From Actinomycetota bacterium (GTDB taxonomy: Bacteria; Actinomycetota; Geothermincolia; Fen-727; Anoxymicrobiaceae): DNA of 36,959 nt. The stretch's first letter is position 1; every line of letters begins with the position of its first letter. Shown piece after piece: positions 16,225 to 18,666 of this stretch. Made by a program: the position numbers and the translations under genes. The notes beneath the pieces are model-generated. The model did no database searches, was not told the DNA's origin, and saw only the letters and a list, made by a program, of their open reading frames with translations. Location of the stretch: assembly GCA_003157385.1 (NCBI GenBank), contig PMJJ01000102.1, positions 58,393 to 95,351 on the forward strand. The letters run 5' to 3'.

Positions 16225-17241
16225 TCAGGGTGGGCGGCGGTACCAATCGATGAGGCGGGCCATCGGCGGGTATACCTTCCTGACCGCGATGAGGCTGTCG
16301 GCCACCTTTCTCGACCTCTCGGGCACAGTTGCCTTCGCCGATTTTATCGCCTCGAACCACTGGCGCGGGTCTTTCCTGGCCAGGATGCCCTCCAGGCTAT
16401 AGACGCTCACGTCGCGCACGCCGGCCGCCAGCGCCGCCTCCAGGCCGACCACCAGCTCAGCGGGCCCGCCGAAGACCGGCTCGTCCTGGAGCACTCCGCC
16501 CCCGGTAAGGCCAAGCGATACACCCGCGCGGCCGCCGAACTTCTCGCGCAGGCGGGAGCAGTTATCGTACACCAGCCAGTTGGCGTCCTTCACGCTGATG
16601 GCCCTGCCGGACATGCCACACAGCATGCTCACATAGAGCATCGGGCTCACGACGTCCCATCCGATCCCGGAAGCCGGCGTCTCGGTCATGTCCTGCAGCA
16701 GCTCGCCGTCCCCCTCCATCTCCAGCCCGATCCAGGGCAGCACCGCCGTGAGCGTGCGAATCCCGGCGTCCTGCAGCTCCACGTTGAGCCTGTCGAGCTT
16801 TCCCTTGGCCCGGTAGTAGCGCTCGCGGTCCAGGTTCTCGCGCGCCGATGTGAACACCTTTCCGAGCTTGATGAGCGGGTTGGTGGCCCGCATCACTTCC
16901 CACATCTGCTGGATGGGCATCTCGAGGTCGATCGCGACCGTGTCGGGAAGGACGTCGTTCTTCTGAGCCCACTCCACCTGGTGGCGGACCAGGGCGCCGT
17001 ATGAAGAAGCGTTGCGCTCGCCAGGAAAGTAGCCCTGCTCTTTCTCCATCAGAGGCCAGAAAGCGTAGTCCACTCCAGCCTCCTTGATCTTCTTGAGCGC
17101 GTTGGCGTTCTTCCGGGTCAGGGAGACCGGGTACATCGCGATGGCGACGCCCGCGGAGAACTCCTGCAGAAGAGGCAGGGCTTTCTTGACTATGTCGGGC
17201 GGAGCGAGCGACTCCTCCCAGAACCTCAGTTCGAACTGCAC
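16225..17241 (-). CDS. Conserved hypothetical protein, probable TIM-barrel / glycoside-hydrolase-like fold
   Basis: MQFELRFWEESLAPPDIVKKALPLLQEFSAGVAIAMYPVSLTRKNANALKKIKEAGVDYAFWPLMEKEQGYFPGERNAS...DTVAIDLEMPIQQMW...; alternating beta-alpha pattern, no specific family recognised. Confidence 0.55.
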   Translation of the reverse strand: MQFELRFWEESLAPPDIVKKALPLLQEFSAGVAIAMYPVSLTRKNANALKKIKEAGVDYAFWPLMEKEQGYFPGERNASSYGALVRHQVEWAQKNDVLPDTVAIDLEMPIQQMWEVMRATNPLIKLGKVFTSARENLDRERYYRAKGKLDRLNVELQDAGIRTLTAVLPWIGLEMEGDGELLQDMTETPASGIGWDVVSPMLYVSMLCGMSGRAISVKDANWLVYDNCSRLREKFGGRAGVSLGLTGGGVLQDEPVFGGPAELVVGLEAALAAGVRDVSVYSLEGILARKDPRQWFEAIKSAKATVPERSRKVADSLIAVRKVYPPMARLIDWYRRPP

Positions 17242-17390
17242 GATGACTCTTTACCCTTCCTCATCGCCCGAAGGTTTCCGTCTGCACCAAGCAGAGAATT
17301 CATACTATCAGAACTTCGATTACACGCCTGCTGTCTTTCATACTGGTCAGTAGATACTTCTATTTTCTGGGGGTCGAGGGAAGTCCCGAA

Positions 17391-17500
17391 GGGGGCGGGG
17401 TGAGCCTTTTGCGAGCGATTCGCAGCGTCTCGGGGAGCATGGAGAGTCTGCTGACTTCAAAGACGCGAGGACCAGCGAGCAAAAACCTCACCCCGCCTCC
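17391..17500. other. ~110-nt imperfect palindrome (candidate structured ncRNA or MITE-like element)
   Basis: Arms GGGGGCGGGGTGAGCCTTTTGCGAGCGATTCGCAGCGTCT ... AGACGCGAGGACCAGCGAGCAAAAACCTCACCCCGCCTCC; by hand 27 of 37 core positions pair in register, closing stem about 14 bp, apical loop about 30 nt. Confidence 0.7.
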
Positions 17501-17517
17501 TCCCATTTCCTTTGAAT

Positions 17518-18666
17518 TCAGAACAAGGCGCGGGCGTATTCCTCGGGGTCGAACGGACGAAGGTCGCTCATGCCCTCGCCCACTCCGATGTAGGAAACCG
17601 GTATCCCGAGCTCACGGCCGATGGCAAGGACGACCCCGCCCTTGGCGCTGCCGTCCATCTTGGTGAGCGCGATTGAGCCCAACTCCATGGCCTCGCCGAA
17701 AATGCGCGCCTGGCTGACGCCGTTCTGCCCGGTGGTGGCGTCGATGGCCAGTATCGACTCGGGCGGGTACCCGAGTTGGCGCTCGGCGACCCGCCACATC
17801 TTGTTGAGCTCGTCCATCAGGTTCTTCTTGGTATGCAGGCGCCCCGCGGTGTCGACTATGACGATGTCGATCCCCCGCGCCGTCGCCGACTCGAGCGCGT
17901 CGAACACGACAGCGGCCGGGTCCCCTCCGGTCTTGTGCCGCACCACAGGCGCGCCGACCCGTTGCGCCCACATCTCCATCTGCTCTATGCCGGCGGCCCG
18001 AAAGGTATCGGCCGCAGCGAACAGGACCTTTTGCCCTTCGCTCTTGTACTGGTAGCCGATCTTGGCGGACGTGGTCGTCTTGCCCACCCCGTTGACGCCC
18101 ACTATGAAGACCACATGCGGCTTCTCGTCGGAGACCGCGGGCCTCTCCCCGAAAGAGCGCAGCATCTCGGCGACCTCCTCGCGGAACACCTGCCGAAGGC
18201 CCTCGAGGTCCCGCACGCCCTCGGAGGTGATTCGCTTCCTGGCGGCTTCCACGATCGTGGTGGCGCTCTCGACGCCGGCGTCGGCGGCGATCAGCGCGTC
18301 CTCGGCGTCCTCCCAGAACTGGGGATCGATGGCGCGCCTGGTCGCGGCACGCGCGAACGGCCTGCCCAGGATCCGGCGCGAGCGCGACATACCCTTGCGA
18401 AGCCTGCGCTTCTCCTCGCCCTCCTCCGCCTCGTCCTCCTCGAGCCACTCCTCTTCGGTGGCCTCACCCTCGGCGACCTCGAGCGGGATGTCCGCGCCAG
18501 GAGCCTCTTCTACAGCGGGCGCGGGTGTTTCCTGCGTGTCTTCGGTGGGGAACTCTGGTGACTCCGGCTCGGGCTGCTGCTCGGCGGCCTCCGGCTGATC
18601 GCCCCCGACGGCGGCCTCAGCCTTCTTCCTGCGCTTCGGCTCCTTCAGGCGCTTGCCCTTGGCCAT
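17518..18666 (-). CDS. ftsY: Signal recognition particle receptor FtsY
   Basis: Acidic N-terminus plus GVNGVGKTTTSAKIGYQYKSEGQKVLFAAADTFRAAGIEQMEMWAQR...DTAGRLHTKKNLMDELNKM...GVGEGMSDLRPFDPEEYARALF. Confidence 0.96.
   Translation of the reverse strand: MAKGKRLKEPKRRKKAEAAVGGDQPEAAEQQPEPESPEFPTEDTQETPAPAVEEAPGADIPLEVAEGEATEEEWLEEDEAEEGEEKRRLRKGMSRSRRILGRPFARAATRRAIDPQFWEDAEDALIAADAGVESATTIVEAARKRITSEGVRDLEGLRQVFREEVAEMLRSFGERPAVSDEKPHVVFIVGVNGVGKTTTSAKIGYQYKSEGQKVLFAAADTFRAAGIEQMEMWAQRVGAPVVRHKTGGDPAAVVFDALESATARGIDIVIVDTAGRLHTKKNLMDELNKMWRVAERQLGYPPESILAIDATTGQNGVSQARIFGEAMELGSIALTKMDGSAKGGVVLAIGRELGIPVSYIGVGEGMSDLRPFDPEEYARALF

Follow-up and report, generated by a model that had tools for sequence, protein, structure and literature searches.

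The window, by which we mean the whole 36,959-nt stretch of DNA that was analysed, carries a real imperfect palindrome at positions 17390–17501, between ftsY and the gene downstream of it, both of which lie on the minus strand (Table 1). ftsY reads towards the palindrome, with 15 nt between the stop codon of the gene and the palindromic core. Consistent with the earlier note, which described arms of about 40 nt in register around an apical loop of about 30 nt, the arms (17390–17430 and 17461–17501) are 41 nt each and 73% complementary without an indel, and the loop measures 30 nt; the GCGTCT/AGACGC and TTTTGC/GCAAAA blocks and the long closing stem, with one G-T pair inside, are likewise present. 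The assignment of ftsY also held, but the ‘TIM-barrel’ label attached to the other neighbour did not, as the protein encoded there has no match in Pfam or NCBIfam. Folded as RNA and compared with dinucleotide shuffles, the palindrome reached −62.7 kcal/mol on the plus strand (z −3.6; 0 of 200 shuffles equalled it) and a z of −4.3 on the minus strand, and single-stranded DNA parameters gave a z of −3.3. As had been stated, no gene covers the palindrome on the coding (minus) strand; the 88-codon plus-strand ORF that overlaps it (17400–17666) is a mechanical one. Nor is the palindrome terminator-shaped, again as claimed: neither a terminator-like nor a promoter-like site was found at the locus, and there is no U-tract.

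Table 1. Features at the ftsY locus, in window coordinates
Feature	Position	Strand	Basis or remark
Gene downstream of ftsY, conserved protein (MQFELRFWEE...)	16225..17241	-	ORF
Left tail of repeat, TCGATTACACG...ACTGGTCAG...	17316..17387	+	30-copy alignment; conserved in young copies
Palindromic core, one family copy (models R1, R2, R3)	17388..17503	+	R2 match and homologues
Outer stem, 5' arm AGGGGGCGGGGTGAGCCTTTTGC	17390..17412	+	Fold and arm alignment
Internal loop, 5' strand GAGCGATTCGCA	17413..17424	+	Conserved among copies
Apical stem, 5' side GCGTCT	17425..17430	+	Fold
Apical loop	17431..17460	+	Conserved in young copies
Apical stem, 3' side AGACGC	17461..17466	+	Fold
Internal loop, 3' strand GAGGACCAGCGA	17467..17478	+	GAGGA is the most widely conserved part
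Outer stem, 3' arm GCAAAAACCTCACCCCGCCTCCT	17479..17501	+	Fold and arm alignment
ftsY	17518..18666	-	ORF; TIGR00064, 321.7 bits

The palindrome is one copy of a repeat. A DNA search of the window's own genome (2.58 Mb; a draft, 85% complete) with a 131-base query and a covariance model, R1, built from 20 young copies, which added the divergent ones, together revealed ∼40 dispersed copies, ∼30 of them young (80–94% identical) and ∼10 old. The copies that the earlier note proposed to look for in the host genome were thus found. In young copies the repeat is longer than the palindrome whose coordinates that note had quoted, extending ∼70 nt leftward (to ∼17316) and 10–50 nt rightward; conservation of the left tail, which is 3' of the hairpin in the reading direction of ftsY, drops at ∼17315 in the 30-copy alignment. 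A 2 × 2 bubble had been described as part of the closing stem, and it is present in the window; however, the family consensus pairs without it, as GGGGGCAGGGTGAGCCTTTTGC / GCAAAAGGCTCACCCTGCCCCC, to give a perfect 22 bp. By comparison with this consensus the bubble, including the CC in the 5' arm of the outer stem, is decay in the window copy and not a feature of the family.

A plain DNA search of 20 relatives returned matches in the own genome only, but the species-restricted repeat suggested by that result was overturned by the covariance models. R1 matched in three other genera of the window's taxonomic family, a second model (R2) in distant families of the same phylum, and a third (R3) in a distant family, f41, which we infer to be probably Coriobacteriia (e.g. 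Collinsella); there, 33 of 41 genomes had members, the maximum being 24 copies in one genome. The window core itself matched R2 with 82.4 bits (E 1.1e-15 in 335 kb of loci searched, covariance-model E-values being rough). Across copies the core measures 78–130 nt, and amplified subfamilies particular to a single genome each occur in G000, G005, and G001. Several own-genome copies hold NN gaps in the hairpin or sit at contig ends, as expected of a strong-hairpin repeat in a draft assembly. Such copies and the draft state of the genome could be taken to point to a chance palindrome or an assembly artefact, but that explanation is already refuted by copies with covarying stems in many independent assemblies, some of them single-contig genomes.

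Two further observations concern the copies themselves. In G000, the draft genome of the window, numerous breaks in the assembly and gaps in scaffolds fall inside copies (C127:1, C2:1, C70 end, C81 end). In addition, several copies directly adjoin a palindrome of a second kind (GGGTCTGACCCCCGCGAAGCC, or AAGGGGCCTGACCCCTT-like units), on the right flank of L014 (G000:C99) and on the left flanks of L011, L015, L017, L031, and L034, and also of L010, L013, L023, and L030. In L014, one unit of this second kind (AATGCAACACAAGGGTTCTTACCCCTTTTGTTGCATT) is apparently inserted within the right end, and mosaics of the two repeat kinds therefore appear to exist.

Copies share an architecture in which an outer stem of 18–25 bp is followed by a conserved, asymmetric internal loop (TCC-GCA-G / C-GA-GGA) and then by an apical hairpin that varies. 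The stem sequences are wholly different between copies, with pairing retained around the same small internal-loop motif, and in old copies and relatives different sequences or hairpins take the place of the apical loop. Divergent copies within the window's taxonomic family keep U4-5 [GC]C / G[GC] A4-5, GNA/AA, GC/GC, C/CA, UCC/GGA, GCA/GA, and GCGU/ACGC. Covariation, which the earlier note had named as a check, was well above shuffles in divergent copies: in an alignment of 11 such copies (A4), double-changed cells numbered 62 compared with 22.8 ± 3.5 after shuffling (score 0.451 versus 0.147), and in one of 42 diverse copies (A6) they numbered 450 compared with 138.6 ± 10.1 (score 0.712 versus 0.171), although the A6 alignment was fitted to the structure and its numbers lean towards it. 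Young copies alone showed weak covariation because they are recent. The exact pattern TCCGCAG N(3-33) CGAGGACCAGCGA, a search that makes no use of structure, was found in 7 of 397 genomes, compared with none for the reversed-pattern control; one genome had 11 exact-pattern copies, and the ten listed each had their own fully complementary apical stem. Because this search is independent of any fitted alignment, it supports the structure apart from the bias in A6.

In further exact-pattern scans, viral contigs gave no match to a tight pattern; the 69 viral matches to a looser one were all chance as judged by R2, and within the viral contigs scanned the family is not carried by phages. Seven exact-pattern matches in genome contigs were discarded, as they had no R2 score. 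A search for tRNA genes around the copies found none.

A 6S, SRP, or riboswitch-like RNA, either free-standing or cis-regulatory, would account for the strong covariation and the conserved loop. However, the known rod-like families that had been proposed for comparison (6S, SRP, and others) gave no match: of the 4227 families of Rfam 15, searched at the gathering threshold and in E-value mode, none scored above chance. Further, the 10–40 copies per genome stand behind the stops of unrelated genes, the stems show no G-U excess (see below), and the window copy has no promoter-like site, all of which makes such an RNA improbable. The family is also absent from the literature that we searched, although it may overlap with the palindromic structured RNAs that PMC8040213 predicts for human-gut bacteria, the taxa of which include Collinsella. 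A literature search with the motif letters returned unrelated sequences alone, as far as their titles tell, and other searches returned papers on REP, ERIC, and template switching with no description of the family. Overall, the family appears undescribed, extragenic palindromes as such being a known kind.

The position of the copies relative to genes was determined with a home-made codon-statistics gene caller applied to the stretches around the copies. On the strand of the model, 63 of 76 nearest right-hand genes in a first set ended towards the element (median distance 21 nt, 51 within 60 nt), as did 66 of 73 in a second set, mostly from f41 (median 20 nt). Pooled, and counting called genes only, this held for 129 of 149 nearest genes on that side, the distance typically being ∼20 nt. 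The orientation of the left-hand gene was split 33/37 in both sets, and in the first set that gene lay ∼200 nt from the element. Among the exceptions to the polarity (13 of 76 and 7 of 73) are the copies ahead of leuC and proS that form the second member of an inverted pair. The upstream genes are diverse, including ftsY, a DinG-like helicase, rpe, and an acetate-CoA ligase subunit in the own genome and groEL, a class II aldolase, pyruvate:ferredoxin oxidoreductase, glpK, ispG, pnp, rplX, and others in f41. The same gene may be followed by different stems, as with groEL and ispG (each in two genera) and with oadA and oppF (between species). Inverted pairs with unrelated stems, one member behind the upstream stop codon and one ahead of the next gene start, were seen in single intergenic regions (leuA-leuC, ispG-proS, and others; L113, L116, L198, L239, L260), and the leuA-leuC gap holds such a pair in both G113 and G142.

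A hairpin just behind an ORF, with fixed polarity, unpaired stem bases, and structure conserved above sequence, invites the question of an attC-like recombination site, in which the template-strand hairpin of the gene would be the integrase substrate, as in integron cassettes. We regard this as highly improbable, given that the conserved part lies mid-hairpin and not at the base, that no R' box (GTTRRRY) was seen in the consensus, and that the copies are dispersed beside core genes and not in cassette arrays.

At ftsY itself, comparison with relatives identified the window element as an insertion. A homologue of the downstream gene, recognised by its matching N terminus, apparently follows ftsY directly in G004, G006, and G007, where the gap is 13, 27, and 47 nt and holds no element, compared with 276 nt with the element in the window. 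G001, which belongs to another genus, also has an element at ftsY, 10 nt past the gene and oriented as in the window; it has a different stem and is a member of the subfamily particular to G001. On this comparison the 3' site of ftsY is a recurrent place for the element, either because elements arrived there more than once or because the element was retained while being rewritten.

The empty orthologous ftsY sites and the dispersed near-identical copies, both those of the own genome and those of the G005 subfamily, are in keeping with a MITE-type element. In the flanks, inspected by eye and without an empty site from a close strain, we saw neither a target-site duplication nor TIRs shared with an autonomous element, and no mobilising enzyme was found. 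These observations bear on the main rival to the interpretation that we prefer (given below), namely a purely DNA-level selfish element whose folded single strand or cruciform would be recognised by a transposase-like enzyme, as for REPs or MITEs, and whose gene-end position would reflect target choice or purifying selection and not host function. Young dispersed copies, presence or absence at individual sites, the genome-specific subfamilies, and the lack of a G-U excess all agree with this explanation. On the other hand, stems of distant lineages are saturated with changes yet still paired, and the same genes carry elements in different genera, which suggests upkeep per locus; further, Y1_Tnp is absent from the own genome and is not specific to carriers. 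We consider the selfish element possible but distinctly less probable than an even chance.

A narrower form of this explanation, in which a Y1 (HUH) tyrosine transposase would mobilise the element as a REP, is largely refuted and very improbable. The copies are indeed extragenic palindromes at gene ends, and Y1_Tnp was detected in 9 of the 12 element-bearing genomes searched, but it also occurred in 12 of 23 further genomes, the majority of which had yielded no element in the searches up to then. The 85% complete genome of the window has no Y1_Tnp, and no element was near the Y1 loci examined. REPs are 20–40 bp long and have a GTAG or CGTC end (PMC3733652); the elements described here are 78–130 nt and, among the copies listed, share no constant GTAG/CGTC end. 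The earlier suggestion of a MITE/REP-like insertion is therefore borne out by the dispersed copies and empty sites, but not for a REP in the GTAG/RAYT sense. We also note that G001, a genome of the same taxonomic family, has 13 genes for Y1_Tnp (REP-type transposase), compared with none in the window's genome.

The earlier note had alternatively proposed selection on a rod-shaped RNA. Pairing is indeed kept by covariation, but constraint acting on RNA only is expected to favour G-U pairs on one strand, and the counts of G-U and A-C stem cells were similar (52 and 45 outside the young copies, 35 and 47 in a second set), which weakens the RNA-only reading. Control gene-end hairpins gave 9 and 4, too few cells to decide. 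The two-way reading of the earlier note, a rod-shaped structure or a MITE/REP-like insertion, is partly supported, both halves being borne out; invisible to it were the stop-codon placement and polarity, the conserved internal loop, and the spread over distant families.

An ordinary intrinsic terminator was ruled out by the low T content following the element (fraction 0.26, compared with 0.41 after other gene-end hairpins) and by the lack of a U-tract at the window copy. In one genus, g97 (L295–L323), the apical hairpin is often an A-tract, a GC stem, and a T-tract nested in the outer palindrome, and in 15 of 103 copies outside the window's taxonomic family an A-tract precedes the apical hairpin and a T-tract follows it. 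Such a hairpin looks like a bidirectional intrinsic terminator. An RNA ending there would miss the second outer arm, yet the second arm is conserved.

Near-identical orthologs indicate how the arms may stay paired. Exact partner changes were about as frequent among them as single changes, and 3 of the ∼6 ortholog pairs with just two differences had exact partner changes. Template switching between hairpin arms is a known mode of mutation (PMC8794818), and, as far as these comparisons go, the partner changes fit it. Because template switching also preserves RNA stems, an RNA role is compatible with all of these data.

Taken together, we give about an even chance to the interpretation that the copies form a family of gene-end palindromes that spread as a non-autonomous repeat and are maintained as hairpin modules of 3' ends, their loop being read by a protein. 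The copies would have spread through a putative trans-acting activity, latest in the window's species. Once placed, the hairpin would fold right behind the stop codon of the upstream gene (here ftsY), shield the end of the message, and limit read-through into the next gene, and the loop TCC-GCA-G/C-GA-GGA would be the recognition site of a putative protein or nuclease. Selection and template switching between the arms during replication would each contribute to keeping the arms perfect. We more tentatively entertain a folded-DNA version, a gene-end boundary element over several Actinomycetota lineages that would both spread and serve the host, its loop read by a protein and its arms kept by template switching. 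In this version, with the same reserve, the folded form would be a single strand or cruciform, the loop read would again be TCC-GCA-G/C-GA-GGA, and the host ends would be those of housekeeping genes.

The combination is unusual in that stems are fully rewritten while pairing, the asymmetric loop, and stop-codon-proximal polarity persist. It could serve as a natural system for distinguishing the action of a palindrome as RNA from that as folded DNA, for weighing template switching against selection in the perfection of long hairpins, and for studying how gene ends are marked in lineages with few U-tract terminators, and the conserved loop offers a bait for finding the putative reader protein.

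Several known systems resemble the family in part. Like REP, BIME, and REPIN sequences, the elements are extragenic palindromes present in tens of copies near coding regions, sometimes as inverted pairs; unlike them, they are 78–130 nt long, have stems rewritten in each copy and an asymmetric loop, and have no specific link to Y1. In GTAG REPs the terminus frequently provides the TAG stop codon (PMC3733652). ERIC and other small mobile sequences of enterobacteria (RU/MITE-like) have been reviewed (PMC2229807). ERIC shares with our family the form of a dispersed, ORF-free imperfect palindrome of ∼100–130 nt but belongs to another lineage. ERIC is not known to have a fixed polarity at gene ends or to show deep covariation about a single loop. 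Intrinsic terminators are similar in being hairpins directly after the stop codon with a locus-specific stem, and in g97 the apical hairpin itself is bidirectional-terminator-like; the element differs from them in its much longer stem, its sequence-conserved internal loop, and the lack of a U-tract past the outer stem. Finally, integron attC sites are likewise structure-conserved hairpins behind an ORF, with unpaired bases and a polarity fixed to the gene, whereas the element has other conserved positions, forms no cassette arrays, and has core genes as its neighbours.
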